DNA of 64,000 nucleotides, from assembly GCA_014324045.1 (NCBI GenBank), contig JACOMY010000010.1:1-64000 (forward strand). The letters are read 5' to 3'. Below the pieces are notes generated by a model. It was given only the letters and a program-made list of their open reading frames with translations. It searched no databases and was not told the origin of the DNA. A program made the position numbers and the translations under genes. This document shows positions 9,164-25,167 of the stretch, piece by piece. The stretch comes from Rhodospirillales bacterium (GTDB taxonomy: Bacteria; Pseudomonadota; Alphaproteobacteria; Kiloniellales; JACOMY01). Position 1 is the first letter of the stretch; every line of letters begins with the position of its first letter.

Positions 9164-9251
9164 TTAAGCCAGACTATCAAGCTAATCCGACCCTCTTGCA
9201 ATGACCGTCGCTTTGGCGCTGCAATGCAGCCTGCTAAGAATCAGTCTGCGA

Positions 9252-9282
9252 GGCTGCTGCCGTTCCAAGGACGGCAGCAGCC
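9252..9282. promoter_or_regulatory. Perfect 12-bp-stem hairpin in the BMC operon leader
   Basis: GGCTGCTGCCGT (9252-9263) pairs perfectly with ACGGCAGCAGCC (9271-9282) around a 7-base loop. It ends 35 bp before the ATG of the binding-protein gene. No T-tract follows. Its position fits the end of opgH transcription, a leader structure, or an operator. Confidence 0.6.
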
Positions 9283-9317
9283 AAACCCGATGGAGAGTCC
9301 GAGAACAGGAGGCAATC

Positions 9318-10454
9318 ATGATCGATCGTAGGACGATGCTTAAGGGGAGCGCCGGTTTGGCCGCTGCCGGCATGTTGGGTATCCCATCGTTTTCGCGTGC
9401 AGAACGCAGCGACGAGTTGAATATTCTCTGCTGGGAAGGCTACAATACCGACGAAGTTCTGGATCCCTTCCGTGCCATGCATCCGGGAGCAAAGGTGCGG
9501 GCCGAGAGCGGTACCTCCGACCCCGATATGATCAACAAGCTGCGCGCCGGAGAGACCAAGGTCTGGGATCTGATCAACGTCAACCAGCCCTGGGCGCAGA
9601 ACCAGCTCTATCCGGAAGGCTTGATCAAGCCCTTGGACAAGGCCCGCTTCGAGCCTTTCTTCGAGACTTTGCTGCCGGAGTTCCGGGGTCCCTACCCCTT
9701 GGCCCTGGATAAGAGCGGCAAGCAGCTGATCGGCATCGTGCAGCGCTTCGGCCCCTTCAGCTTCGTGGTCAACACCGGCAAGATCAGCCGCGCGATGGCC
9801 GAGGATCAGGGCTACAAGCTCTTCCTCGACCCCGGTATGAAGGAGCGTTACGGCGTCCTGACCTACGATAACTGGAACATCATCCACATGTGCATGGTGG
9901 CCGACCTCAATCCCTTCGAAGCGTTGAACGATCCGCAGTTCGCCAAGTTCGATACCGCAGCGAAGGCTATCTTCGGCGGCGCCAAACTGCTGACCGACGA
10001 TCTGGTGGCGATGAACACCGCCCTGATCAACGGCGAGATCGACGCCTACTTCACCGGCGGCACCTACACGGCCTCGCCGGCGCGCTACGACGGCCAGAGT
10101 CAGGTGCGCGGCATAACGCCCAAGTCGGGCCCGGCGGGCGGCAAGGGCGGCGTCGTCTGGGTTGAGGTGACCTCGGCGGTCAACAACCCCGATCCCTCGC
10201 CGCTGGCATCGGATTTCCTGGCGTACGTCCAAGGACCGGAGGCCAGCAAGAAGGTGGCCTTCACCGAGGGAACCTACAACCCGGTGGCCCAGATGGGCAG
10301 CAAGGACGTGCTCGATCTCTTCGACAAAGACGAACTGGATGCCATCCAGTGGGATTCCCTGAACGAGGAGATGGCACGCTCGGCCGACTATCAGATCGTC
10401 GCCTCTTACGACAGGCTGAGCGACATCTACAACGCGGCTCGCCGCGCCAGGTAA
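9318..10454 (+). CDS. PotD-like ABC transporter substrate-binding protein
   Basis: A 378-aa periplasmic binding protein of the spermidine/putrescine (type 2) family. The start at 9318 is set by AGGAGG at 9307-9312 and by the twin-arginine-like signal DRRTMLKG at residues 3-10, followed by a hydrophobic stretch to about 25. Binding-protein features include ILCWEGY at the start of the mature domain and a MNTALINGEIDAYFTGGTY segment late in the protein. It heads the operon of transporter, amino-alcohol enzymes and shell genes. I infer that the ligand is an amino alcohol or related amine. Polyamines remain an alternative. Confidence 0.85.
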   Translation: MIDRRTMLKGSAGLAAAGMLGIPSFSRAERSDELNILCWEGYNTDEVLDPFRAMHPGAKVRAESGTSDPDMINKLRAGETKVWDLINVNQPWAQNQLYPEGLIKPLDKARFEPFFETLLPEFRGPYPLALDKSGKQLIGIVQRFGPFSFVVNTGKISRAMAEDQGYKLFLDPGMKERYGVLTYDNWNIIHMCMVADLNPFEALNDPQFAKFDTAAKAIFGGAKLLTDDLVAMNTALINGEIDAYFTGGTYTASPARYDGQSQVRGITPKSGPAGGKGGVVWVEVTSAVNNPDPSPLASDFLAYVQGPEASKKVAFTEGTYNPVAQMGSKDVLDLFDKDELDAIQWDSLNEEMARSADYQIVASYDRLSDIYNAARRAR

Positions 10455-10518
10455 TCGACCTCCGGGAGGGGCGCACAGGCCCCTCCCGCCTGTCCCCCGC
10501 GTGAGGAGCAGCCCATAG

Positions 10519-11592
10519 ATGGCCTCGCAGACCGTTCTGCGCCTTGAAGGAGTCACCAAGCGCTTCGGCAGCTTCACCGCACTCGACAGCATCACATTGG
10601 ACATCGCCGACGGTGAGTTCCTCACCATCGTCGGTCCCTCGGGCAGCGGCAAGACCACCATGATCCGCCTGCTGGCCGGTATGGACGCGCCCAGCAGCGG
10701 CGAGATCTATTTGTCGGGCAATCGCATCACCCATCTGCCGGCCAACAAGCGGCCGACCTGCATGGTGTTTCAGTCGCTGGCCCTCTTCCCGCACCGCACC
10801 GTGGGGCAGAACATCGAGTTTCCCCTGAAGATCCGCGGCCTCGATCGGGCCGCACGGCGCGCCCGCGCGATGGAGTTGCTGCAGCTGCTGCGCCTGCCGG
10901 CCGGCTACTACGGCAAGGGCGTGATGCAATGCTCCGGCGGCGAGCGGCAGCGCGTGGCGCTGGCCCGGGCGCTGGCCTTCGATCCCGAGATCCTTTTCTT
11001 CGACGAGCCGCTCTCGGCCCTAGACTACCGACTGCGCAAGACCCTGGAGAAGGAGCTGAGAGCGCTCCACCGGCAGACCGGCAAGACCTTCGTCTACATC
11101 ACCCACAGCCTGGAAGAGGCCATGGCGATGTCCGACCGCATCGCCATCATGCGCTCCGGCAGAATCGTTCAAACCGGCACCGCAGCCGAGATCTACAACA
11201 CTCCTAAGGACCGTTTCGTGGCCGAATTCATGGGCGAGGTAAACCTCTTCCCGGTCGAGGGCACCGGCGGCGGGCACTTCAAGGGCCTGGCAGAGCCGCT
11301 TCAGGCCGGCACCGCCACCCTTGCCCTGGATGCCGCTGCGCGCGCCACACTTATGGTCCGGCCGGAGTTCGTCCGCTTCCTCGCCCCGGGAGAGATGGCC
11401 GACTGCAGCCTTGAGGGCGAGCTACACAACGAATTCGCGCTGGGCTCGCGCGTCCAGTACGAGGTCGGCCTGCCGGGCGGCCGGGCGCTCACCGTCGAGA
11501 AGCTGGCCGAGGCGCGCTTCGACGGCAACTACGGCGACCACGTGACCCTGGGCTTCGACCTGGCCCACAGTCATCTGATCCGCGAGGCTTAG
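10519..11592 (+). CDS. PotA-like ABC transporter ATP-binding protein
   Basis: The 357-aa ATPase has Walker A GPSGSGKTT (about 37-45), an ABC signature reading CSGGERQRVALARALA (about 137-152, Cys where Leu is usual), Walker B ILFFDEPLSALD and the switch His in the ITHS motif (about 193-196). The C-terminal 110 residues are a TOBE-like regulatory domain. It energises import with the two permeases immediately downstream. Confidence 0.9.
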   Translation: MASQTVLRLEGVTKRFGSFTALDSITLDIADGEFLTIVGPSGSGKTTMIRLLAGMDAPSSGEIYLSGNRITHLPANKRPTCMVFQSLALFPHRTVGQNIEFPLKIRGLDRAARRARAMELLQLLRLPAGYYGKGVMQCSGGERQRVALARALAFDPEILFFDEPLSALDYRLRKTLEKELRALHRQTGKTFVYITHSLEEAMAMSDRIAIMRSGRIVQTGTAAEIYNTPKDRFVAEFMGEVNLFPVEGTGGGHFKGLAEPLQAGTATLALDAAARATLMVRPEFVRFLAPGEMADCSLEGELHNEFALGSRVQYEVGLPGGRALTVEKLAEARFDGNYGDHVTLGFDLAHSHLIREA

Positions 11593-11599
11593 CGGCACC

Positions 11600-12454
11600 A
11601 TGGAGCGGATAGAGGAACGCCAAGGTTTGCTCTCAGCCTTGCCGGTGCTGATCCTGCTGGGCGCGATCTTCCTGGCGCCGCTGCTTGTGGTGGCCGGCTT
11701 CGCTTTCATGCCGCCCAAGGTCTTCCACCTAGCCCATCTGCCAAGTTTCGAGAACTTCCGGATCTTTTTCGATCAGGGCTACCATGCCCCGCTGCTGCGG
11801 TCGCTGGGCATGGCCGGCGCGGCCACGGTTCTGCTGTTCGTGCTCTGCTATCCGCTGGCCTACGGCATGGCCAAGATCTTCGGGCGTTTCTCCCTGGCGA
11901 TAACCCTTGCCGTCGTAGCAACGCTCTTCGTCTCGGAGAACATTCGCCTCTTCGGCTGGGTCCTCACCCTGATGAAAGGCGGCATGCTGCCGGGCCACCT
12001 TGAGGCCTGGACCGGGCTGGAGATGGACGGTCTGCTCTACAACCTGCCGATCATCGTGCTGGGCCTAACCTACGCCTACTTCCCCTTCATGCTGTTTCCC
12101 CTGGTGCAAGGCATCTCCATGGTGCCGGACGACCTGCGCTTAGCGGCAAGCGATCTGGGTGCCTCGCGCTTGCGCATTTTCCTGGAGATCGATCTGCCGC
12201 TGGCCATGCCGGGCATCGTGGTGGGCAGTCTGCTGACCTTCGTGCTGGCAGCCGGCGCCATGGCGGAATCGAAGCTCTTGGGCGGCCAGGCCGTGATCGT
12301 CATGGCCGACGAGATCGAGACGGCCTTCACCTACGGCCAGAACTGGCCGCTGGGCTCCGCTCTGGCCCTGATCCTGATCCTGATCGTCGGCGGGCTGGCG
12401 ATCCTTGCGCTCTCCAAGATCGATCTGGACGGCATTATGGGGCGAAGAAGTTAG
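11600..12454 (+). CDS. PotB-like ABC transporter permease
   Basis: A 284-aa inner-membrane protein with about six TM helices. It has the cytoplasmic EAA-loop motif AASDLGASRLRIFLEIDLPL (about 184-203) that contacts the ATPase. It lies 7 bp after the ATPase gene and abuts the second permease gene. It is a subunit of the importer feeding the BMC pathway (inference). Confidence 0.9.
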   Translation: MERIEERQGLLSALPVLILLGAIFLAPLLVVAGFAFMPPKVFHLAHLPSFENFRIFFDQGYHAPLLRSLGMAGAATVLLFVLCYPLAYGMAKIFGRFSLAITLAVVATLFVSENIRLFGWVLTLMKGGMLPGHLEAWTGLEMDGLLYNLPIIVLGLTYAYFPFMLFPLVQGISMVPDDLRLAASDLGASRLRIFLEIDLPLAMPGIVVGSLLTFVLAAGAMAESKLLGGQAVIVMADEIETAFTYGQNWPLGSALALILILIVGGLAILALSKIDLDGIMGRRS

Positions 12455-13270
12455 ATGCCGCACAAACCCATTACCCGTGCCGCTCTGCTGGTCTACGGCA
12501 TCCTTACCCTGCTGGTGCTCTACCTGCCGATTGCGGCCATCGCCTTCGCCTCCTTCTCCAAGGCCCGTTACCTCAGCTTTCCGATCGAGCGCTATACAAG
12601 CCAATGGTATGGCAAGGCGCTGGAGTCCTCGACCGTCAGCGATTTGATCGTCACCTCCTTCAAGGTCGCCTTCGCGGTCATGCTGGTCTCGGTCGTAGCC
12701 GGATTTTTCGGCGCGCTCGCCTTTGCGCGCTACCGCTGGCGCTTCCGCGGGGTATTCCAGAAGTTCGTGCTGCTGCCGATCTTCTTCCCGCAGGCGGTCC
12801 TCGGTCTGGCGCTGCTGATGTGGTTCAACGCAATCGGCGTGACCCCGACCTGGCAGACGGCAATCGCCGCCCATCTGGTCTGGATCGCCCCCATCGCCAC
12901 CCTGGTAATCGCCATCCGGGCCTATGGCTTCGACCCGGCCCTGGAAGAGGCGGCCCGGGACATGGGCGCCGGCTATTGGCAGATCCTGCGCGAGATCACC
13001 CTGCCGCTGCTGTGGCCGGGCGTGGTCTCGGCTGGGCTCTTCGCCTTCCTGTTGTCCTGGGGGAATTTCCCCCTATCGCTCTTCACCACCGGCGCCGATC
13101 TGACCCTGCCGGAATGGCTCTACGCCAAGATGGTCAGTGGCTACTCGCCGCTGGTGCCCTCGGTCGGCAGTATGACTCTGGCCCTATCGCTCATCCTGCT
13201 CCTCGCCAGCGCCGCCTGCATCCGGCTGACCGGCCGGCGGCGGCGGCGGGCAAACGGCGGTGAGGGCTAG
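12455..13270 (+). CDS. PotC-like ABC transporter permease
   Basis: A 271-aa inner-membrane protein with six predicted TM helices. Its EAA motif is EAARDMGAGYWQILREITLP (about 166-185). It begins directly after the stop of the first permease gene. The Arg-rich C-terminal end is cytoplasmic. It completes the transporter of binding protein, ATPase and two permeases. Confidence 0.9.
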   Translation: MPHKPITRAALLVYGILTLLVLYLPIAAIAFASFSKARYLSFPIERYTSQWYGKALESSTVSDLIVTSFKVAFAVMLVSVVAGFFGALAFARYRWRFRGVFQKFVLLPIFFPQAVLGLALLMWFNAIGVTPTWQTAIAAHLVWIAPIATLVIAIRAYGFDPALEEAARDMGAGYWQILREITLPLLWPGVVSAGLFAFLLSWGNFPLSLFTTGADLTLPEWLYAKMVSGYSPLVPSVGSMTLALSLILLLASAACIRLTGRRRRRANGGEG

Positions 13271-13338: not shown

Positions 13339-14127
13339 ATGCTGACTTCAATCAAGGATCGTTCGGTCATCGTCACCGGCGGCAGCAAGGGAATCGGCAA
13401 AGGCATCGCGCGCGTCTTCGCGCGTCAAGGCGCCAAGGTGATGATCGCCGCGCGCGGCGAGGAGGCCGCCAAGGCGGCGGCCGAGGAATTGAAGACCGAG
13501 GGCTGGACCGTGGATTACCGCCTGACCGACGTTACCGATCTTGCCGCCGTCGAGGCCCTGGTAGCCGACACCGAAGCAGCTTTCGGCGGCCTGGACATCC
13601 TCTGCTCCAACGCCGGCATCTTCCCGCAGGCCAAGATCCTGGAGATGACGCCGGAGGACTGGGACCGCGTCCTGGACACCAACCTGAAGAGCAGCTTCCT
13701 GGCGGTGAAGGCGGCCCTGCCGGCGATGGCGAAGAAGGGCGGCGGACGCATCGTGCTGACCTCTTCCATCACCGGGCCGATCACCGGCTTTCCCGGCTGG
13801 ACCCACTACGGTGCTTCCAAGGCCGGCCAACTAGGCTTCCTCAAGACCGCGGCGATCGAACTGGCCAAGTACAACATCACCATCAACGCGGTCATGCCCG
13901 GCAACATCAAGACCGAAGGACTGGACGGCCTCGGCGAGGACTACCTGGCGACCATGGCGGCCTCAATCCCGCTGAAGCGGCTGGGAGACGTAGAGGACAT
14001 CGGCAATGCCGCGCTCTACTTCGCCTCCGACGAGGCGGGCTACGTCACCGGCCAGACCATCGTCGTCGACGGCGGCCAGATCCTGCCGGAGAGCCTGGAG
14101 GCGCTGGAGGAGGCCCGATCCCCCTGA
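13339..14127 (+). CDS. Short-chain dehydrogenase/reductase (candidate amino-alcohol dehydrogenase)
   Basis: The 262-aa classical SDR has the nucleotide motif TGGSKGIGKGIA (about 13-24), NAG near 89-91, catalytic Ser in the LTSS segment near 142, and Tyr157-x3-Lys161. A GGAGG ribosome site precedes the ATG. In the RMM-type compartment loci of Mycobacterium an SDR oxidises S-1-amino-2-propanol to aminoacetone, and the same position here suggests an equivalent task. The specific substrate is not visible in the sequence. It sits 68 bp after the second permease gene. Confidence 0.85.
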   Translation: MLTSIKDRSVIVTGGSKGIGKGIARVFARQGAKVMIAARGEEAAKAAAEELKTEGWTVDYRLTDVTDLAAVEALVADTEAAFGGLDILCSNAGIFPQAKILEMTPEDWDRVLDTNLKSSFLAVKAALPAMAKKGGGRIVLTSSITGPITGFPGWTHYGASKAGQLGFLKTAAIELAKYNITINAVMPGNIKTEGLDGLGEDYLATMAASIPLKRLGDVEDIGNAALYFASDEAGYVTGQTIVVDGGQILPESLEALEEARSP

Positions 14128-14190
14128 CGATCCCCCATCGGCCCCCGATCCCCCACCGGCCCCCTTTGCAGCCAAACGAAAGCGAAGAGC

Positions 14191-15195
14191 ATGAGCGATG
14201 ACGTTTCGAGCCACGGCGAGCTAGTGGCCCGGCTGGACCGCCTCGCCCAATCGGCCCTGCCCCTCTGGGGCCTGCCGACGCCGGCGGCGGTCACCCTCAT
14301 CAACCTCTCGGAGAACGCGACCTACCGGATTGACCTGCCCGAGGGGCCGCCGAAGATTCTCCGCGTCCATCGCGAGGACTATCACAGCGCTAATGCCATC
14401 CGGTGCGAATTGGCCTGGCTGGAGGCGCTGCAGGCAGACGGCGGCGTCGTCACCCCGCCGGTAGTTCCCGGCCTCGATGGCAGGAAGATCCAGACAAAGC
14501 GCTCGCCGGATCTGGCCCGGCCGCGGCACATGGTGCTGTTCGAGTTCCTGGAGGGCGAGGAGCCGGAGGAGACGCAGGAGCTGGCCGGCCACTTCGAGAT
14601 CCTGGGCGAGATTTCCGCCAAGCTGCACATCCATGCCCGGACCTGGCAGCGCCCCGCCAACTTCGAGCGCTTGACCTGGGACTACGAGCACATGCTGGGC
14701 GCCAATCCCAACTGGGGCGACTGGCGGGAAGCGCCGGCAATGGATGGCGAGGCGCTGAAAATCCTCAGCCGCCAGGACGCGGCGATCCGCAGGCGCCTGG
14801 AGATCTTCGGCAAGGGACCGGAGCGCTACGGTCTGATCCATGCCGATCTGCGGCTAGCGAACCTGCTGCTGCACGGCGCCTCCACCCGCGTCATCGATTT
14901 CGACGACTGCGGCTTCGGCTGGAACCTCTACGACTTCGCGACCGGCGTCTCTTTTTTCGAGGAGAGCCCGGCGGTGCCGGAGCTGGCAGCCTCCTGGGTC
15001 GAGGGCTACCGCAAGCATCTGGACCTGCCGGCCGGGGACGAGGCGGAGATGATGACCTTCGTGGCGTTGCGCCGCATGGTCTTGCTGGCCTGGATCGGCT
15101 CGCATGGCGAAACCGACCTGGCCAAGCAGCACGGCCTGGCCTACACACGCGATTCCTGCGATCTTGCCGAGCGCTACCTATCGTCATTCAATTGA
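14191..15195 (+). CDS. APH/choline-kinase-fold phosphotransferase (candidate amino-alcohol kinase)
   Basis: This 334-aa kinase has the Brenner motif HADLRLANLLL with His217, Asp219 and Asn224. The metal-binding VIDFDDCGFG follows near 235-244. The glycine loop region is ENATYRID near 48. Family members phosphorylate hydroxyls of aminoglycosides, choline, ethanolamine or homoserine. The next gene encodes a phospholyase-type class III aminotransferase. I infer that this enzyme phosphorylates an amino alcohol to make the phospho-ester that the lyase splits. It is not likely to be an antibiotic resistance gene. Confidence 0.85.
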   Translation: MSDDVSSHGELVARLDRLAQSALPLWGLPTPAAVTLINLSENATYRIDLPEGPPKILRVHREDYHSANAIRCELAWLEALQADGGVVTPPVVPGLDGRKIQTKRSPDLARPRHMVLFEFLEGEEPEETQELAGHFEILGEISAKLHIHARTWQRPANFERLTWDYEHMLGANPNWGDWREAPAMDGEALKILSRQDAAIRRRLEIFGKGPERYGLIHADLRLANLLLHGASTRVIDFDDCGFGWNLYDFATGVSFFEESPAVPELAASWVEGYRKHLDLPAGDEAEMMTFVALRRMVLLAWIGSHGETDLAKQHGLAYTRDSCDLAERYLSSFN

Positions 15196-15298
15196 GGTGC
15201 TGTTAATCGGGGTGCTGGCAAAAACCGGCTGCGATCTGTCAAGCGATCGACGCAGAACCCGGTTAGAGTCGGTCAGGCCTATTCGAGGAGCCCGTCTC

Positions 15299-16570
15299 TT
15301 GAGTCTGGAAAAGGAAGACTTTCTGGAGCGGTCCAAGACCTTCTGGAATCCGGCGAAGGTCCAGGACTGGCAAGACATGGAGGTCGATCTGGTGATCGAC
15401 CGCCGCGAGGGCTATTGTCTCTACGACATGGACGGCCGACAGTTGATCGACCTGCATCTGAACGGCGGCACCTACAACCTGGGCCATCGCCATCCGGAAC
15501 TGGTCGAGGTGCTGAACCGCGCCAGCGGTCATTTCGACATGGGGAACCACCACTTCCCCTCCCTGGCCCGCACCGCGCTGGCCGAGGCGATGGCCGCCTG
15601 CACGCCGGGCGATCTCAAGTACACCATCTACGGCTCCGGCGGCGGCGAGGCCATCGACATCGCCATCAAGTCGGCCCGCAACGCCACCCGGAAACGCAAG
15701 ATCGTCTCCATCATCCGCGCCTACCACGGCCACACCGGTCTGGCGGTGAAGGCCGGGGCCGAGCGCTTTACCAAGCTCTTCCTCTCGGAGGACCGCGAGG
15801 GGGAGTTCGTCCAGGTTCCATTCAACGATCTGAACGCCATGGAGGAGGCGCTGAAAGGCCGCGACGTCGCTGCGGTCCTGATGGAGACCATACCGGCAAC
15901 CTACGGCTTCCCCATGCCGCACGAAGGCTATCTGCCGGCGGTCAAGAAGCTCTGCGAAGGCTACGGCGCCCTCTATATCGCCGACGAGGTGCAGACCGGC
16001 CTGATGCGCTGCGGTACCTTGTGGGGCATCGTTCGCTACGGCGTGGAACCCGATATCCTGGTGACCGGCAAGGGCATCTCCGGCGGCCTCTATCCCATCG
16101 CCTGCGTGGCGGTCACGGAAGAGAGCGGCAAGTGGCTGAAGCAGGACGGATTCGGCCACATCTCGACCATGGGCGGGGCGGAGTTGGGCTGCATCGTGGC
16201 TATGAAGGTGCTGGAGATCACCCAGCGCCCGCAGGTGGTCTCCATGGTGCGCTACATCGCCGACTTCATCCGCGCCGGGCTGGATGGGATTCGCGCGCTC
16301 TATCCCGACTTCTTCATCGGTATCCGCCAGCATGGCGTGGTGATGGGCCTGGAGTTCGACCATCCGCAAGGCGCCAAGCCGGTGATGAAGCATCTCTACC
16401 GCAACGGCGTCTGGGCAATTTTCTCGGCCCTCGACCCGCGGGTACTGCAGTTCAAGCCCGGCATTCTGATGTCGCAAGCGATGTGCGAAGAGACCTTGGC
16501 CCGAGTCGAAGTTGCCATCGGCTTGGCCCGCGAAGAGGTCATGGGCAAGGGCTCGCGGAGGAGCCGGTGA
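15299..16570 (+). CDS. Class III aminotransferase-fold PLP enzyme (candidate amino-alcohol-phosphate phospho-lyase)
   Basis: The protein has 423 aa. The TTG at 15299 is chosen because GAGGAG lies at 15285-15290. An ATG 78 bp later would remove conserved residues, and the upstream extension is not conserved in style. The PLP lysine is Lys258 in TGKGISGG. The upstream IADEVQTGLMR holds the Asp that contacts the PLP ring nitrogen. Family members include ethanolamine-phosphate phospho-lyase, which releases phosphate and ammonia to give an aldehyde. With the kinase before it and an aldehyde dehydrogenase after it, this is the likeliest role. Ordinary transamination is the alternative. Its stop overlaps the ALDH GTG start (GTGA). 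Confidence 0.82.
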   Translation: MSLEKEDFLERSKTFWNPAKVQDWQDMEVDLVIDRREGYCLYDMDGRQLIDLHLNGGTYNLGHRHPELVEVLNRASGHFDMGNHHFPSLARTALAEAMAACTPGDLKYTIYGSGGGEAIDIAIKSARNATRKRKIVSIIRAYHGHTGLAVKAGAERFTKLFLSEDREGEFVQVPFNDLNAMEEALKGRDVAAVLMETIPATYGFPMPHEGYLPAVKKLCEGYGALYIADEVQTGLMRCGTLWGIVRYGVEPDILVTGKGISGGLYPIACVAVTEESGKWLKQDGFGHISTMGGAELGCIVAMKVLEITQRPQVVSMVRYIADFIRAGLDGIRALYPDFFIGIRQHGVVMGLEFDHPQGAKPVMKHLYRNGVWAIFSALDPRVLQFKPGILMSQAMCEETLARVEVAIGLAREEVMGKGSRRSR

Positions 16571-18177
16571 CGGACGCCCAGATCAGGCCCCTCATCGACA
16601 TCGACGGCAGTGCTGCGGCGCTGACCTCCAAGGCTGGCATGCTGCTGGAGCAGGCGCGCTGGGCCGCCCAAATCTTCCAGCGCTACGACCGCGGGAGTAC
16701 GCTCTCGATCGCCGAGGCCGTAGCCCGCGTGGCGCATGGCAAGGCCGCCGAATTCGCCGAACGCACCGTGGCCGAGACCGGTTTCGGCGTCGCCGCCCAC
16801 AAGCGCCTGAAGAACGAACTCTCCAGCCTGCCGCTGGTCGAGCACTACCGCAGCCACGACTTCGTCAATCCGGCGGTCAACGAGGCCCAGAAGATCGTCT
16901 CCATCCCGCGGCCGGCCGGCGTGATCTTCGCCCTGGCACCCTCGACTAACCCCATCGCCACAGTCTACTTCAAGATCCTCTCGGCCCTGATGACCCGCAA
17001 TGCCATCATCGTGAGCCCGCACCCGGCCGCCGCCGAGACCTCGCTGGAGGCGATCCGCTGTCTGGCCAGGGCCGCCGAGGCCGCTGGCGCCCCTCCCGCC
17101 GCGGTCCAGGGCGTGACCGAGCCCAGCCTGCCGCTGATCGAGCAGTTCATGCGTTCCGAGAAGACCGATGTGATCCTGGCGACCGGTGGCAGCGCCATGG
17201 TGCGCGCCGCCTATGCCTCAGGCAACCCGGCGATCGGCGTGGGCCCGGGCAACGCGCCGGTCTTCGTCGACGCCTCCGCCGACTTGACCGCCGCCGCCCG
17301 CCACATCGTCGAGAGCAAGTCCTTCGACAACTCGGTCCTCTGCACCAACGAATCCGTGCTGATCACCCTACCCCAGGCCGAAGCCGGCCTGCTGCGCGAG
17401 ATGAAGAAGGCTGGCGCCCACCTCTGCTCTGAGGCCGAGACAGCGGCCCTGCGCCGGCTGCTTTTTCACGAGCGCGGCTTCAACGTCGAGACGCTGGGCC
17501 GCGACGCCGACTGGATCGCCGGGCAGGCCGGGATCAAGGTTCCGCCCAAGACCAGGATCTTGGTGACGCCCATTACCCTGATTGGGCACAACGAGCCGCT
17601 GTCGCGTGAAAAGCTCTGCCCGGTGTTGAGCCTCTATCTGGCCCGCAACAAGGCGCAAGCCCTGACCCAAGCGCGCCAGCTGCTGCGCTTCGGCGGGGCC
17701 GGACATTCGGCGGCGATCCACTCGCGCGATCAGCAGACCGTCCTGGACTACGCCGCGGCGGTCGAGGTCTACCGCGTGGCGGTGAATGCACCCTGCAGCC
17801 AGGGCGCGGCCGGCTTCGCCACCCATCTCGCACCCAGCTTCACCATCGGCACCGGCTTCTACGGCCGCTCTTCCATCGGCGAGAACATCGGGCCGCAGCA
17901 CCTAGTCAGCTGGACCGAGGTCGCTTGGAACCGCGACAGCAACGAGGTCCTGGATCTGCAGGCTCTGACCCGCCTGCATCACCCCGGCCCGCTGCCGGAA
18001 GCGCCCAGCGACGGTGTGCCCGGCAAGACCGGAGCCGAGGGCCGGGCGCCGCCGCCGGCAGCCCCCAATCATCGAGGCAACAGCCATCGCGACGACAGTT
18101 TGCGCGAGGAGATTCGGCGAATCGTCGCCGAGGAACTGCGCGCGGCCATGAAGGGCCGATCCCATGGCCGAACTTAG
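16567..18177 (+). CDS. BMC-associated aldehyde dehydrogenase with C-terminal encapsulation-peptide-like tail
   Basis: The 536-aa protein starts at GTG 16567 after GGAGGAG (16557-16563). The open frame continues far upstream, but only in the shadow of the aminotransferase gene. The catalytic Cys is Cys259 in DNSVLCTNE, as in PduP/EutE-type CoA-acylating ALDHs, so the product is probably an acyl-CoA. The catalytic domain ends near 470. It is followed by a Pro/Gly/Ala-rich linker (about 471-508) and an amphipathic helix LREEIRRIVAEELRAAM near 512-528. This linker-plus-helix layout is typical of cargo targeted to the shell. Its 3' end overlaps the first shell gene by 14 bp. Confidence 0.9.
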   Translation: MTDAQIRPLIDIDGSAAALTSKAGMLLEQARWAAQIFQRYDRGSTLSIAEAVARVAHGKAAEFAERTVAETGFGVAAHKRLKNELSSLPLVEHYRSHDFVNPAVNEAQKIVSIPRPAGVIFALAPSTNPIATVYFKILSALMTRNAIIVSPHPAAAETSLEAIRCLARAAEAAGAPPAAVQGVTEPSLPLIEQFMRSEKTDVILATGGSAMVRAAYASGNPAIGVGPGNAPVFVDASADLTAAARHIVESKSFDNSVLCTNESVLITLPQAEAGLLREMKKAGAHLCSEAETAALRRLLFHERGFNVETLGRDADWIAGQAGIKVPPKTRILVTPITLIGHNEPLSREKLCPVLSLYLARNKAQALTQARQLLRFGGAGHSAAIHSRDQQTVLDYAAAVEVYRVAVNAPCSQGAAGFATHLAPSFTIGTGFYGRSSIGENIGPQHLVSWTEVAWNRDSNEVLDLQALTRLHHPGPLPEAPSDGVPGKTGAEGRAPPPAAPNHRGNSHRDDSLREEIRRIVAEELRAAMKGRSHGRT

Positions 18178-18799
18178 ATCCTTTCTCTTCCTCGACCGCT
18201 TGCAGCCGCAGACGCTCTGCTACATGGCCAGCTGGATGCGCGGAAACCTGCCGCGCGCCAACGTCGCGGCCCAGATCGTCGAGATCGCGCCCGGCCTGGA
18301 CATCGAGGCCCTGACCGACGCCGCCCTCAAGCATGCCGAGGTGCAAGCCGGCATCCTGGCGGTCGAGCGGCAGTTCGGCTATCTGGAGTTCCATTCGCGC
18401 TCCACCTCGCTGCTGAAGGCCTCGGCCGAGGCGGTTCTGGACCGCCTAGGCGCCCGCGCGCAAGACGCCATCCCGCCCAAAATCCTGGCCTCCAAGGTGG
18501 TAACCCGGGTCGATCGCCAGCATGCCTTCCTGATCAACCGCAACAAGCTGGGCTCGCTGCTGCTGGGCGGGGATTCGCTCTATCTGATGGAGGTGCAGCC
18601 GGCCTCCTACGCGGTGATCGCCGCCAACGAAGCCGAGAAAGCAGCCAACATCAAGCTGATCGACTACCGCATGATCGGCGCCAGCGGCCGGGTCTATCTG
18701 GCCGGCCGCGAAGACGAAATCCGGAACGCCCGCGACGCCGCCGAGGCGGCTCTGTCCACCTCCCTGGCCGCCTCCTTGGCTGACTTGGGCAGGCGCTAG
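18164..18799 (+). CDS. BMC shell protein, tandem BMC domain (BMC-T), first paralogue
   Basis: A 211-aa protein with two BMC folds (about 5-95 and 105-205). The first has AVERQFGYLEFHSRS near 66-80. The second has ANEAEKAANIKLIDY and IGASGRVYLAG near 150-185. Such trimers make pseudo-hexameric facet tiles, often with a large gated pore. It starts inside the end of the ALDH gene, so the two are coupled. It is related to the protein at 19804-20478 but clearly diverged from it. Confidence 0.88.
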   Translation: MAELRSFLFLDRLQPQTLCYMASWMRGNLPRANVAAQIVEIAPGLDIEALTDAALKHAEVQAGILAVERQFGYLEFHSRSTSLLKASAEAVLDRLGARAQDAIPPKILASKVVTRVDRQHAFLINRNKLGSLLLGGDSLYLMEVQPASYAVIAANEAEKAANIKLIDYRMIGASGRVYLAGREDEIRNARDAAEAALSTSLAASLADLGRR

Positions 18800-18809
18800 G
18801 ACCGGGCGC

Positions 18810-19229
18810 ATGGACCGGGAGATCCGCAGCCTGATCCGCGAAGTCCTGGCCGAAGAGCTTGCGAAGCTCGGCGGCCGCGGCGCCAGGCCGCCGGGCGAGG
18901 AGCAGGTCAGCATCGCGAACGACCGGGACCTGGCCGCATTCGTGCAGCGCTTGCTGGAGATGAGCCGCGACGGCGAGACCCGCGCGGCCATCGAGCAGGG
19001 CCGGCTGGTCTTCCGCCTGGTCCGCGCCGAGCGTACTGCGGCCCAAGCGCCGGCCCGGCGCAACCCCAGCAGTCAGCGGATCGACAGGGGCTTCGTCTCC
19101 GAGCGCCAGGTGGACGCGCTGCCGCCAGGCACCAGCCTGTTGCAGGTCGGCAAGGCCGTACGCTTCACCCCGCTGGGCCGCGACCGCCTGCGCCAGCGCG
19201 GGATCGCAATCGAAAGGATCGAGCGATGA
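18810..19229 (+). CDS. Uncharacterised BMC-locus protein with N-terminal encapsulation-peptide-like helix
   Basis: A 139-aa protein. Residues 5-20 (IRSLIREVLAEELAKL) form an amphipathic helix very like the tail of the ALDH. A Gly/Pro linker follows near 21-33. A middle helical part (about 35-75) precedes an Ala/Pro/Arg-rich stretch. The C-terminus has VRFTPLGRDRLRQRGI (about 117-132), a pattern reminiscent of C-terminal segments in other BMC accessory proteins. There is no enzyme motif. A role as scaffold or adaptor between cargo and shell is plausible but unproven. Its stop overlaps the BMC-P start (ATGA), so the stoichiometry may be coupled. Confidence 0.75.
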   Translation: MDREIRSLIREVLAEELAKLGGRGARPPGEEQVSIANDRDLAAFVQRLLEMSRDGETRAAIEQGRLVFRLVRAERTAAQAPARRNPSSQRIDRGFVSERQVDALPPGTSLLQVGKAVRFTPLGRDRLRQRGIAIERIER

Positions 19230-19468
19230 TCAAGGGACGCGTGGCCGGCCGGGTCTGGTCGACCCGGCGCATCGGGAGCCTGCCGCAAGGCGCGCTGCTG
19301 GAGGTCGAGTTGGAGAACGGCAGCCGCCTGATCGCCTTCGACCCCCTGGGCTGCGGCAACGGCGAGGCCGTGCTGATCACCCAGGGCTCGGTCGCCGCCG
19401 CCTTCTTCGAGAAGGCCAAAGCCCCGGTCGATGCCCTGATCGTCGGCGCCATCGACGAAACGGCATAG
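19226..19468 (+). CDS. BMC vertex protein (BMC-P, EutN/CcmL family)
   Basis: An 80-aa protein with the EutN/CcmL pattern: GRVAGRVWSTRR at the start, LLEVEL, then AFDPLGCGNGEAVLITQGS (about 39-57) and a terminal VDALIVGAID strand. Pentamers of this family cap the vertices of the icosahedral shell. One such gene per locus is the minimum for a closed compartment. It overlaps the upstream gene by 4 bp. Confidence 0.92.
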   Translation: MIKGRVAGRVWSTRRIGSLPQGALLEVELENGSRLIAFDPLGCGNGEAVLITQGSVAAAFFEKAKAPVDALIVGAIDETA

Positions 19469-19517
19469 CGCTATCCGCCAAGACTGACTACCCGAGCTGA
19501 CTACAAGGAGCAAAGCA

Positions 19518-19799
19518 ATGGCCAGCCAAGCAATCGGAATGATCGAGACCAAAGGCTATGTGGCCGCGCTGGCCGCAGCCGACGCCATGGTCAAGGCCGC
19601 CAACGTCATCATCGTGGCCCGCGAAGAGGTCGGCGACGGCCTGGTCTCGGTGGTGATTCGCGGCGATGTCGGTGCGGTCAAGGCCGCGACCGAGGCCGGC
19701 GTCGAGGTAGCCGGACAGGTGGGCGAGCTGGTCTCGGTCCACGTGATCCCGCGCCCGCACCCGGACCTCGCCAAGTTCTTCGCCGCCGCCGCAGACTAG
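19518..19799 (+). CDS. BMC shell hexamer protein (BMC-H, Pfam BMC)
   Basis: A 93-aa canonical single BMC domain: [20 protein letters not shown] at the start, [20 protein letters not shown] in the middle, and a VIPRPHPDL tail. It is the bulk facet protein. An AAGGAG ribosome site precedes the ATG. It is the only BMC-H in the locus, so all single-domain hexamers would be of one type. Confidence 0.95.
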
Positions 19800-19803
19800 C
19801 GTC

Positions 19804-20478
19804 ATGGCCGGGGCGAGGAGCGTTCGCAAGACCGCCGCTACGACCGCGGTGGCGGCGCTGCGGGTCTATCTGCCGATCGAAGACTTGCAGCCGCAGTTCG
19901 CGGCCTATCTCTCGACGCCCTTGCGGGCGCGCGGCTATCCCCCGCAGGAGGGTGAGCACAGCCTGATCGTCGAGGTCGCCCCGGCGCTGGCCATCCACCG
20001 CGTGGCCGATCTGGCGCTGAAGGCCGGCGGCGACCTGGAGCCGGGTATCCTTTTCACCGAGCGGCAGTTCGGCGTGCTGGAGCTGCACAGCGCCGACAAG
20101 GCCGAGCTGCAGGCGGCCGGCGACGCGGTGCTGGCCGGCATCGGTGCCAAGGCCGGCGATCAGCTGCGCCCGGCTACGCTGTTCACCGACATCATCGAGG
20201 ATCTGACCGACCGCCACGCCATCATCTTGAACCGCACACGCGAAGCCTCGATGATCCTGCCGGGACAATCCTTGCTGGTCTACGAGATGGCGCCTGCCCT
20301 CTTCGCCGCGGTGGCCGCCAACGAGGCCGAGAAGGCCGCTGAGGAGATCACCCTGGTCGACCTGCAGACGATCGGCGCCTCGGGACGGGTCTTCCTGGCC
20401 GGCAAGCCAGCCGCCCTGGCCAAGGCCCAGGCCCGCATCGCCGCCACCCTGGAGGCGGTCGAGGGCCGCAGCGGATAG
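19804..20478 (+). CDS. BMC shell protein, tandem BMC domain (BMC-T), second paralogue
   Basis: A 224-aa tandem BMC protein. The first 15 or so residues are a basic/Ala-rich extension. Domain 1 includes FTERQFGVLELHSAD (about 83-97). Domain 2 has ANEAEKAAEEITLVD and IGASGRVFLAG, matching the paralogue at 18164-18799. Two different BMC-T proteins suggest two facet tiles, perhaps with distinct pores for substrate and cofactor. It is the last gene of the operon. Confidence 0.9.
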   Translation: MAGARSVRKTAATTAVAALRVYLPIEDLQPQFAAYLSTPLRARGYPPQEGEHSLIVEVAPALAIHRVADLALKAGGDLEPGILFTERQFGVLELHSADKAELQAAGDAVLAGIGAKAGDQLRPATLFTDIIEDLTDRHAIILNRTREASMILPGQSLLVYEMAPALFAAVAANEAEKAAEEITLVDLQTIGASGRVFLAGKPAALAKAQARIAATLEAVEGRSG

Positions 20479-21009: not shown

Positions 21010-23415
21010 CTACATCCCGCTCTTGTAGAGGCAAGGCGCACAGACCTTGGCAGCAACCGTCTTCCCGAGGATCTGTAGGCCCAGGCCGGTCCCTTCCGCC
21101 GCCAAGGCCGGTTCCACGAAGCCCATGGCCAGATTCTTGCCGACGCGGTGGCCCCAGGCGGCGGACGTCACCGTGCCGACGACGCGGCCGGCCTGCAGCA
21201 AGGAGTCGCCGGGCTGGGCCGGGGCTTCGCCACTCAGGATTTCGAGGGTGACGAAGCGTTTGCGGGGGCCGGCGGCTCGCCGGGCCAGCAGGGCCTCGCG
21301 GCCGATGAAGTCGCCTGCCGGGCGGACGAAGCGCTCAAGGCCGCTTTCGTAGGGGTCGAACTCTGTGATCAGGTCGGCCTTCCAGTGGCGATAGCCCTTC
21401 TCCAGGCGCATGGAGTCGGTGGCATAGAGGCCGAAGGGCCTCATGCCGTGCGGCTGCCCGGCCTGCCACAGCAGATCGAAGACGGCGGCGAGCCGGGCGT
21501 TGGGGACATGCAGCTCCCAGGCCAGTTCGCCGGAGTAGGAGACCGAGAGGGCCACCGCCTCGGCGCCGGCGATCTCCACCCTGCGGGCCGAGAGCCAAGG
21601 GAAGGCCTCCCTGGACCAGTCGCAGTGCGGCAGGGCCTCGGTGAGCACCTGGCGGGACAGCGGGCCGGCGACGACCAGGGCGGTCATGCTATCGGTCAGG
21701 CTCTCGATGCGGATGGCGCCACCGCCGGGCAGATGCTCCTGCAGCCAATCGCGGTCATGATACTCGGCAGCGGCGGCCGAGCCGTACCAGAAGCGCCCCT
21801 CCGCCAGCTTGGCCAGGGTGGCTTCGGCCTTCACATTGCCCTGGCGGTTCAGCAGGTAGCAGAGGCCGACCTTGCCGACCCGCGCCGGCACCCGCGAGCA
21901 GGTCATCCGGCACAGCCACTCCTCCAGACCGGGACCGGCGAGCTCGTAGCGGTTGAAGCCGGAGACCTCCATGATGCCGACGCCGGTCCGGACCGCCGCC
22001 ACCTCGGCGGCAACGACGTCGAATGTGTTGGTGAAGCGGAAGGAAAGCCGTTCCTCGAAGTCCGGCGTGGGCTTGAAGAAGGTCGCCCGCTCCCAGCCGT
22101 TGACCGTGCCGAAGTCCGCGCCCAGTTCCGCCAAACGCCCGGTCAGCGGCGTGGTCTTGGCCGGCCGGCCGGCCGGCCGATGCTCGTGCGGCAGATGGAA
22201 GCGGAATTCGTTCCGGTAGTCCTCGACCGCCTTCAGGGTCGTGTAGCCGACATCGGCATGGCGGGTGAAGCGGCGCGGGTCGAGGCACCAGGTGTCGTAG
22301 CAGGCCTCGCCCTGGGCAAGGATCTGCGCCAGCAGCCAGCCGTGCCCGCCGCCCTCGCCCAAGCCGGCGCGCAGCCCGGTGATGCAGTAGGCATTGCGTT
22401 TGCCGGGGATGGGGCCGACCAGCGGCAGGCCGTCGGGAGTGTAGGTGATCGGGCCGTTGATCACCGTGTGGATGCCGGCCCCGGTCAGGCCGGGCAGGCG
22501 CCGGAACGCCCCCTCCATCACGCCGATCACGCGGTCGAGGTCGTCGGGGCAAAGCGCCATGGTGAAACCGGGATCGATTCCCTCCAGGCCCCAGGTGCGG
22601 CAATCCTGCTCGTAGAAGCCGACCAGCAGACCCTGCTTCTCCTGCCGGCAGTAGAAGTCGTCGGTGGGGCAGCGGATCAACGGCACCCGGAAGTCCAGCG
22701 CCTCGATCTCCGCCATGGGCTCGGTCAGGAGGTATTGGTGCTCCATGGAGACCACCGGCAACTGGCTGCCCATCATGGCCGCCACCTCGTTGCAGCGGTA
22801 GCCGCCGGCATTGACCACCTTCTCGCAGCGGATGTCACCCTTCCCGGTACGGACCGTCCAGCTGAAGTCCGGATGCTGGGTCAGGCCGGTGACCGGGGTG
22901 AAGCGATAGACCTTCGCGCCGGCCTTGCGGGCGCGCCGCACCAGGGCCTGGCAGAGTTGGGCCGGGTCGATGTCGCCATCCAACGGGTCCCAAAGCGCCC
23001 CCAGCAGAGTGTCCGTGGCGATCAAGGGATGCCGCTGCGCGCACTCCCCGGCGTCGAGCAGTTCGAAATCGACGCCCATGCCCTTGGCCAGCGAGATGAA
23101 GTGACGATAGCCGTCGATGTGATCCTGGGTCGAGGCCAGGCGCAGGCCGCCGGTGGCATGGTGATAGTTGATCGGATAGTCCGGGTCGTCGGCCAATTCC
23201 TTGTAGAGGCGGATCGAATGACTCTTCAGCCCCACCATGGTCTGGGTCGGCCCGAAGTTGGTGACCTGCGCCGCCGAGTGCCAAGTGGTGCCGGAGGTCA
23301 GCTCGTCCCGTTCCAGCAGCACGCAGTCGGTTATGCCCTCTTGGGTCAGGTGATAGAGCGTCGAGCAGCCGCCGATGCCCCCACCGATCACCACCACATC
23401 GGTCTGTGTTTTCAT
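21010..23415 (-). CDS. Dimethylglycine/sarcosine dehydrogenase-like flavoprotein with GcvT domain
   Basis: An 801-aa fusion. The N-terminal DAO domain has the FAD motif VVIGGGIGGCSTLYHL (residues 8-23). A TSGTTWHSA segment near 41-49 contains the His that carries covalent FAD in dimethylglycine dehydrogenase. The C-terminal part (from about 440) is a GcvT/aminomethyltransferase-type folate domain. Enzymes of this family oxidatively demethylate N-methyl amino acids or amines and pass the one-carbon unit to tetrahydrofolate. The exact substrate is open. The gene is convergent with the BMC operon and divergent from the MttB-like gene, pointing to a methylated-amine module. Confidence 0.85.
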   Translation of the reverse strand: MKTQTDVVVIGGGIGGCSTLYHLTQEGITDCVLLERDELTSGTTWHSAAQVTNFGPTQTMVGLKSHSIRLYKELADDPDYPINYHHATGGLRLASTQDHIDGYRHFISLAKGMGVDFELLDAGECAQRHPLIATDTLLGALWDPLDGDIDPAQLCQALVRRARKAGAKVYRFTPVTGLTQHPDFSWTVRTGKGDIRCEKVVNAGGYRCNEVAAMMGSQLPVVSMEHQYLLTEPMAEIEALDFRVPLIRCPTDDFYCRQEKQGLLVGFYEQDCRTWGLEGIDPGFTMALCPDDLDRVIGVMEGAFRRLPGLTGAGIHTVINGPITYTPDGLPLVGPIPGKRNAYCITGLRAGLGEGGGHGWLLAQILAQGEACYDTWCLDPRRFTRHADVGYTTLKAVEDYRNEFRFHLPHEHRPAGRPAKTTPLTGRLAELGADFGTVNGWERATFFKPTPDFEERLSFRFTNTFDVVAAEVAAVRTGVGIMEVSGFNRYELAGPGLEEWLCRMTCSRVPARVGKVGLCYLLNRQGNVKAEATLAKLAEGRFWYGSAAAAEYHDRDWLQEHLPGGGAIRIESLTDSMTALVVAGPLSRQVLTEALPHCDWSREAFPWLSARRVEIAGAEAVALSVSYSGELAWELHVPNARLAAVFDLLWQAGQPHGMRPFGLYATDSMRLEKGYRHWKADLITEFDPYESGLERFVRPAGDFIGREALLARRAAGPRKRFVTLEILSGEAPAQPGDSLLQAGRVVGTVTSAAWGHRVGKNLAMGFVEPALAAEGTGLGLQILGKTVAAKVCAPCLYKSGM

Positions 23416-23619
23416 CGCCCCGTCCTATAAATCTTCCTGCGCGCCGCACGCACCCATCCCACGTCCGGCCACTCTGGCGCGCGGGTTCCCTACTCGCCAG
23501 CGCGATCGCGCCGCTTCAGCCTCTCTGAAGGGGGTGTTCCGAAATCCTGAAGCGATGGGTTTCCATTGCCCCGGCGCCCGCTTCGGTGCCGAATCCCTCA
23601 AGTGTAAGGAGGACTCCCA

Positions 23620-25167
23620 ATGCCGAAACAAGAGCCGGGAACAAAGCGCTCCAGCGGCGGTCGTGCCAGGCGGGTCGCTGCGCGCCGTGCGGTCGAGGCC
23701 GAGGTCAATCCCTGCCCGCCCGGCCAGCCTGGCGGGCGCTACCGCCCGCTCAGCGAGCCGGACACGGCCGCGATCCTCGATAGCGCCCTGCGTATCCTGG
23801 CCGAGATCGGATTGGGCACGGTGCCGCAAGTCCTAGCCGAGCGGGCGCTGGAGGCAGGCGCTCAGTTGAGCGGCAGCGGGCGGCTCTGCTTCCCCCGCCC
23901 CCTGGTGGAGGACATCGTCGCCGGCGCCGCCAAGGGCCTCGTCCTGCACGGCCGCGATCCCAAGCACGACATCGAGATTGGCGGCAAGCGCGTCTACTTC
24001 GGCACCGGCGGCGCGGCGGTGCAGACGCTCGACCTCGACAGCGGCCGCTATCGGGCCTCCACCTTGCGCGACCTCTACGACTTTACCCGTCTGATCGACA
24101 GGCTGGAGAATGTCAGCTGGTTTACCCGCTGCTGCATCGCCACCGACGTGGCCGATCCCTTCGATCTGGACGTGAACACGGCCTATGCCCTGCTGGCCGG
24201 CACCAACAAGCCGCTCGGCACCGCCTTCACCCTGGCCGCCCATGTCGAGCCCATCGTCCAGCTCTTCGACTTAGCCCTCGGCGGCGAGGGCCGCTTCCGG
24301 GCGCGTCCCTTCTGCAAGGCACACATCTCGCCGGTGATCTCGCCGCTGCGCTATGGCGAGGATGCGGTCGCAGTGGCGCTGGCCTGCATCCGCTACGGCG
24401 TACCGATCAACGCCATCATTGCTGCACAGTCCGGCGCCACCGCGCCCGCCCCTCCGGCCGGCATGCTGGCCCAGACCACGGCCGAGACTCTTGCCGCGCT
24501 CATCATGGTGAACCTCTTTGCGCCGGGCTATCCCATGATTTTCTCCAACTGGCCCCTGGTCATCGATCTGCGCAGCGGCGCCTTCTCCGGCGGCGGCGGC
24601 GAGGTGTCGGTGATGAACGCGGCCTCAGCGCAGATCTCCAATCACCTGGGCCTGCCCTCGGGCGTCGCCTGCTCCATGTCGGACGCCAAGGCGGTAGACG
24701 CCCAGATGGGCGCGGAGAAGGCTTTGGCAGCGCTGGCCGCCGGCCTGGCCGGCGCCAACATGATCTATGAGTCCTCCGGCATGATGGCGAGCCTGCTGGG
24801 CGTCTCCTTCGAGGCCTTCGTCGCCGACGACGAGATGCTGTCCCACGCCTATCGCGCCATCCGCGGCATCGAGGTGAACGAAGAGACCCTGGGCTTCGAG
24901 GCGATCCGCGAGACGGTCACCGGCGAGGGCCACTTCCTAGGCTCGCCGCACACCATGGCGGCGATGCAGCGCGACTACTACTACCCGAAGCTGGCCGACC
25001 GCGATTCCCCGGCGGTCTGGGACGAGGCCGGCGCTCCCGACCTCTGGTCCAGAGCCAAGGAGAAGGCGCGCGAGGTTCTTGCCAACCACCGCCCGACCTA
25101 TATCCAGCCGGCAGCCGATCGGCAGATTCGCGATCGCTTCAACATCCTCCTTCCCGCCTCCGTTTAG
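23620..25167 (+). CDS. MttB-family (trimethylamine/quaternary amine) methyltransferase, non-pyrrolysine
   Basis: A 515-aa protein of the MttB superfamily. Archaeal MttB reads an internal TAG as pyrrolysine; here the frame has no internal stop. It is therefore of the non-Pyl type, some of which demethylate glycine betaine or related quaternary amines onto a corrinoid protein. Recognisable parts include YFGTGGAAVQTLD (about 126-138), CKAHISPVISPL (about 231-242) and a glycine-rich FSGGGGEVSVMNAA (about 323-336). AAGGAGG precedes the ATG. No corrinoid protein gene is adjacent, so its partner lies elsewhere or the enzyme uses another acceptor. Confidence 0.85.
   Translation: MPKQEPGTKRSSGGRARRVAARRAVEAEVNPCPPGQPGGRYRPLSEPDTAAILDSALRILAEIGLGTVPQVLAERALEAGAQLSGSGRLCFPRPLVEDIVAGAAKGLVLHGRDPKHDIEIGGKRVYFGTGGAAVQTLDLDSGRYRASTLRDLYDFTRLIDRLENVSWFTRCCIATDVADPFDLDVNTAYALLAGTNKPLGTAFTLAAHVEPIVQLFDLALGGEGRFRARPFCKAHISPVISPLRYGEDAVAVALACIRYGVPINAIIAAQSGATAPAPPAGMLAQTTAETLAALIMVNLFAPGYPMIFSNWPLVIDLRSGAFSGGGGEVSVMNAASAQISNHLGLPSGVACSMSDAKAVDAQMGAEKALAALAAGLAGANMIYESSGMMASLLGVSFEAFVADDEMLSHAYRAIRGIEVNEETLGFEAIRETVTGEGHFLGSPHTMAAMQRDYYYPKLADRDSPAVWDEAGAPDLWSRAKEKAREVLANHRPTYIQPAADRQIRDRFNILLPASV

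Follow-up and report, generated by a model that had tools for sequence, protein, structure and literature searches.

What is known of the attachment of an enzyme core to its shell comes mostly from Pdu compartments and beta-carboxysomes. PduM of the Pdu compartment has at its N-terminus a working signal sequence (ssPduM), which is directed to the core and associates with it; without PduM, shell and core come partly apart, and PduM itself did not associate strongly with the shell (PMC12108088, PMC9132943). As of 2025, no sequence homologues of PduM were known outside Pdu compartments (PMC12108088). EutQ deprived of residues 1–100, a stretch that includes a module which recurs below, loses its interaction with EutM in pull-downs (PMC4827028). 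A proposed binding site for encapsulation peptides (EPs) is the groove where BMC-H hexamers meet, and the A63R substitution in PduA abolishes binding of PduL (PMC11157265); EPs also form condensates and bundles, the latter proposed to be trimeric (Nat Commun 2025, PMC12339742). RMM1 loci group the genes for an SDR, an APH-type kinase, a class III PLP enzyme and an ALDH with shell genes (PMC4207490).

The locus described here lies in an alphaproteobacterial window, by which we mean the whole 64,000-nucleotide stretch analysed. Its region 13339–20478 forms a compact, operon-like block of genes for an SDR, an APH-fold kinase, a class III PLP enzyme, an ALDH, shell proteins and a 139-aa protein that matches no family (Table 1). 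The ALDH gene is followed by genes for a CcmP-like BMC-T, the 139-aa protein, a EutN/CcmL-type pentamer, a BMC-H and a second CcmP-like BMC-T. SDR, APH kinase, class III PLP enzyme, ALDH and shell proteins thus occur together, and by gene content the locus is an RMM1/AAUM-type amino-alcohol microcompartment. It shares with the RMM1/AAUM of Mycobacterium and Rhodococcus the combination of these enzyme genes with shell genes (PMC4207490); the host here is an alphaproteobacterium, and the shell genes comprise one BMC-H and two double-stacked BMC-T. Acetylating ALDHs are the best PDB matches of the ALDH, and its homologues begin at the place equivalent to the GTG at 16567. By homology, the pathway would start with an amino alcohol and end with an acyl-CoA, presumably by way of phosphorylation and then PLP-dependent phospho-elimination to the aldehyde. 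We take PDB 6ef6, the best match of the kinase, to be the (S)-1-amino-2-propanol kinase of M. smegmatis, and from homologues only we infer 1-amino-2-propanol/aminoacetone as the substrate. Directly upstream lies a four-gene ABC importer (window 9201–13270), polyamine-type by eye, which may import the substrate. Beside the shell genes (window 21010–25167), a dimethylglycine-dehydrogenase-like protein (DAO + GCV_T) and a protein that is MttB-like by eye suggest methylated-amine catabolism close to the compartment.

Table 1. Features of the locus (positions in the window).
Feature	Position	Strand	Evidence and remarks
SDR	13339..14127	+	EP-type tag not found
APH-fold kinase	14191..15195	+	Best PDB match 6ef6, 1.9e-96; EP-type tag not found
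Class III PLP enzyme	15104..16570	+	Start codon uncertain; EP-type tag not found
Acylating-type ALDH, 536 aa, GTG start	16567..18177	+	Pfam Aldedh; NCBIfam AdhE/EutE-like
ALDH linker, disordered, non-conserved, residues 468-508	17968..18090	+	AlphaFold2 pLDDT about 33-51
ALDH C-terminal EP-like helix LREEIRRIVAEELRAAM	18100..18150	+	Conservation, reciprocal profile match, model
BMC-T, double-stacked (CcmP-like), first copy	18164..18799	+	Pfam BMC; NCBIfam CcmP 3.9e-60
139-aa protein, putative PduM-like structural linker	18810..19229	+	Relatives in loci; model architecture
N-terminal EP-like helix EIRSLIREVLAEELAKL of 139-aa protein	18819..18869	+	Profile matches, AlphaFold2 model
Middle beta-alpha-alpha-beta domain, residues 30-70	18897..19019	+	pLDDT above 90; no profile match
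C-terminal module (C-module), residues 92-136	19083..19217	+	hhalign with decoys: PduM C-terminus, EutT/EutQ N-termini
BMC-P pentamer (EutN/CcmL)	19226..19468	+	Pfam EutN_CcmL 8e-21; start overlaps 139-aa stop codon (ATGA)
BMC-H	19518..19799	+	Residue 63 (19704-19706) is Glu; Ala in PduA
BMC-T, double-stacked, second copy	19804..20478	+	NCBIfam CcmP 1.4e-52

The preliminary description had pointed to one helix at the C-terminus of the ALDH and another at the N-terminus of the 139-aa protein, and both sequences are present there. The ALDH tail has a predicted helix at 18091–18162, modelled by AlphaFold2 as residues 509–532 at a modest pLDDT of about 54–66, behind a linker rich in Pro, Gly and Ala. 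The fraction of sequences with the majority residue is 0.37 in the linker, 0.66 in the helix and 0.71 in the core of the enzyme. This helix is conserved in 93 loci, with three positions (R, E and L) kept in 90–93 of the 93 and one Arg position in all of them. The 139-aa protein begins MDREIRSLIREVLAEELAKL and is modelled with a helix at residues 2–20, followed by a low-confidence linker; R6, R10, E15 and E16 recur in 77–84 of 92 sequences, R6 and R10 in 82 each.

The two helices resemble each other in both directions of comparison. Scored with a 17-position profile of the 76 unique helices of the 139-aa family, from which the window sequence was left out, the ALDH tail reaches 17.1 and comes first among the 34 other proteins of the window; the next best score is 2.0, among 12,105 17-mers of the 33 remaining proteins. 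The reciprocal ALDH-tail profile gives the 139-aa N-terminus 2.9, behind the ALDH alone, with the next window protein at −4.4. These values and the recurrence across loci bear out the shared helix pattern noted at the outset. Full shuffles reach the two observed scores in 2 and 72 of 20,000 trials, and shuffles that keep the hydrophobic/polar pattern do so in 83 and 592 of 20,000 (0.4% and 3%), so the hydrophobic pattern explains part of the likeness and not all of it. With both profiles, the SDR, APH, PLP, BMC-P, BMC-H and BMC-T proteins stay below 8 in every locus scanned, and the absence of a tag from the APH-fold and PLP enzymes, as first described for the window, is true in every one of these loci. 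Across the 4,321 ORFs in the loci that are 120 aa or longer, the only scores of at least 10 outside the two families belong to a fragment of ALDH, to two minus-strand ORFs, taken to be antisense noise, and to two proteins that are fusion relatives of the 139-aa protein. By these profiles, only the ALDH (at its C-terminus) and the 139-aa protein (at its N-terminus) carry EPs in this locus, and the two predicted EPs are amphipathic helices of one kind, conserved together and joined to their proteins by non-conserved linkers.

Related loci were gathered by one contig scan with the first BMC-T as query, which retained the best 80 of 299 candidates, a cut that favours close relatives. Among these best 80 of 299, a blastp relative of the 139-aa protein occurs in 80 of 80, and the ALDH tail and the 139-aa N-terminal helix occur together in essentially all. 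The sources are Alpha- and Gammaproteobacteria, Actinobacteria and one Spirochaetaceae MAG. In one locus (L101) a candidate helix, RSVTREVLADLLPD, lies near the N-terminus of the 139-aa relative, and in another (L061) the ALDH is interrupted by Ns. The viral contigs scanned with the 139-aa protein contained no relatives. Three loci (L036, L038 and L039) come from MAGs that bear the labels Gammaproteobacteria, Sulfurimonas and Candidatus Neomarinimicrobiota, yet for the most part they are 97–99.9% identical over many kb, as if a single organism had been binned under three names. A 2021 catalog attributed RMM2 outliers in Epsilonproteobacteria and Marinimicrobia to phage transfer; those outliers are possibly the same records. 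Two MAGs titled Bifidobacterium breve (L071 and L079) also have the locus, on contigs 85% identical to each other, and their labels look wrong.

That both helices are EP-type tags, as the preliminary description had proposed, is well supported by their terminal position, hypervariable linkers, deep conservation and likeness to the EPs of the Pdu system. Models and conservation agree on a terminal amphipathic helix of 15–20 residues, attached through a flexible linker with little conservation. The helix profile, trained on the 139-aa family only and without Pdu sequences, was applied to an unrelated 19-kb pdu region from another proteobacterium, where it ranks the N-termini of PduP (10.6) and PduD (7.8), both established EPs, as the top two, with the next score at 2.9; inside PduE and inside PduM, too, it scores the N-terminus highest. 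The profile is not universal, since the N-terminus of EutE does not stand out with it in the E. coli eut operon. The EPs of PduP and PduD are the same kind of amphipathic helix as the two in the window. PduP has Glu at 7 and Arg at 11, whereas the window-type helices mostly have Arg at both equivalent positions in a hand alignment; we had considered Arg at the PduP-E7 position as family-specific, a notion weakened by PduD, which also has Arg there. When the EP part was compared by hhalign, the ALDH tail came out best (4e-4), followed by a reversed-PduM control (9.5e-4) and then by PduD, PduP and PduE, and the closeness of that control to known EPs counts against our best explanation. So does the case of PduE, whose EP-like N-terminus may not target cargo (PMC12108088).

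Our AlphaFold2 model of the 139-aa protein (mean pLDDT 87) resolves a conserved core component of three parts, an EP helix, a middle domain and a C-module of about 45 residues with the order beta-alpha-beta-alpha-beta (about 87–136). The C-module has the motif 'vsE..v...TPLArD..R.rgI.IER', which is common to PduM, EutT and EutQ. Against decoys drawn from all families of this locus and from the proteins of one pdu and one eut operon, its best hhalign match is the PduM family (E 2e-6), followed by EutT, with E 1.4e-5 and 4e-4 for small EutT and EutQ alignments, these E-values being pairwise rather than database-wide and the comparison families narrow. The middle domain has no detectable homology to PduM (E 0.075, not above decoys). 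Across 60 members of the family, L41, F68, T120, P121 and L122 never vary; these members have no conserved Cys, no His column above 29 of 60 and no catalytic-looking set, and the lack of Cys and His conservation argues against an enzyme role. Foldseek of the model against the PDB returned nothing at E ≤ 0.001. A resemblance to Cas1, seen in repeated Foldseek matches of about 60–70 columns at a TM of about 0.3, was treated as small-fold resemblance, and PDB sequence searches with the 139-aa alignments gave apparent chance matches such as a cytochrome construct and histones. In one genus (L018, at 819–1698, L019 and L020), an insert that is NTF2/SnoaL-like by eye separates middle domain and C-module, suggesting that the parts of the protein are modular.

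In these features the 139-aa protein looks like a distant cousin of PduM. Both families have an N-terminal EP helix, a similar C-terminal module and a gene directly upstream of the pentamer gene: pduM directly precedes pduN, ending 3 nt before it, and the 139-aa gene directly precedes the BMC-P gene, with an overlap of 4 nt in 56 of the 81 loci measured. Among the 139-aa proteins, no Pfam family except PF15953 (PDU_like) recurs widely, and its scores are weak (15 of 60 members at E ≤ 1, best E 0.0018). The window protein itself does not match it and falls short of the Pfam gathering cut-off for the PduM family. A homologous C-terminal module was found; gathering score and middle region both failed to connect the two families, and we do not claim the protein as a PduM family member. 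Unlike PduM (PF15953), it has a middle region of its own, without detectable homology, and belongs to a different type of organelle. The N-terminal regions of EutQ and EutT have a related stretch with the TP.AR motif; in contrast to the 139-aa protein, the module there is N-terminal and fused to another domain, with no EP helix before it.

Taken together, we consider it fairly probable that this is an RMM1/AAUM metabolosome with two EP-bearing proteins, the ALDH and the 139-aa protein, in which the latter couples core to shell much as PduM does. The helices of the two proteins would bundle with each other, dock on the same groove of the BMC-H facet, or both, and thereby recruit the 139-aa protein to the ALDH core; it is reasonable to infer, with the preliminary description, that one shell or scaffold surface would bind both. 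The C-module would then make a second contact, with a shell protein, so that the 139-aa protein would tie core and shell together, the part played by PduM in the Pdu compartment. The kinase, the PLP enzyme and the SDR would piggy-back into the compartment or act outside. The C-module common to PduM, EutT and EutQ, which the preliminary description had overlooked, makes the 139-aa protein a probable shell–core linker and not just a second tagged cargo. The case for shell binding by the module depends chiefly on EutQ, which gives the weakest match of the three, since PduM did not associate strongly with the shell.

Another account of the 139-aa protein makes it a second tagged cargo or a regulator, such as a protein that binds a small molecule or assists an enzyme, with the C-module a catalytic or ligand-binding accessory in place of a shell contact. 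EutT and EutQ have enzyme annotations (cobalamin adenosyltransferase and acetate kinase, respectively) and each has the related module at its N-terminus, and the NTF2/SnoaL-like insert indicates that the scaffold can bear a further domain. We nevertheless regard this account as unlikely, given the lack of a conserved Cys/His or catalytic-looking set across the 60 members, the synteny with the pentamer gene and the structural protein PduM as best match of the C-module. That the likeness of the helices is convergence between two ordinary amphipathic helices with no shared partner is highly improbable: the pattern-preserving shuffles that reach the observed scores speak for it, whereas the deep conservation of specific residues (R, E and L in the ALDH; R6, R10, E15 and E16 in the 139-aa protein) beside variable linkers, and the recovery of PduP and PduD by the helix profile, speak against it.

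The shell side bears on a further reading, that the helices are oligomerisation helices which mainly bind each other and make no shell contact, shell coupling being achieved by another contact. It draws on the EP bundles and condensates described above (PMC12339742), and on BMC-H residue 63, where 90 of 91 loci of the window type have Glu, at the very place where A63R kills PduL binding in PduA (PMC11157265). PduA and EutM have Ala here, and the other Pdu/Eut-type BMC-H sequences inspected have Ala or Val, as read by eye; the groove thus differs from that of PduA. Against this reading, the groove positions 23, 27, 56 and 60 are small, as in PduA, and Glu63 could be a partner for the EP arginines, which are nearly invariant; such a salt bridge is possible, and there is no covariation between arginines and Glu63 to measure because neither side varies. 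On balance, we judge shell-free oligomerisation quite improbable, and keep to the reading in which the 139-aa protein couples core to shell. A bolder version of that coupling, offered tentatively and as doubtful, would make the C-module a general shell-contact domain across Pdu, Eut and RMM compartments, the 139-aa family the first PduM-type linker outside Pdu, and the EP arginines and Glu63 a charge-retuned EP/shell pair.

If true, a PduM-like linker in RMM/AAUM compartments, built with a module that also occurs in EutT and EutQ, would turn shell–core coupling into a more general and testable principle. The two natural EPs, one C-terminal and one N-terminal, together with the change in the BMC-H groove, may provide material for work on cargo targeting.
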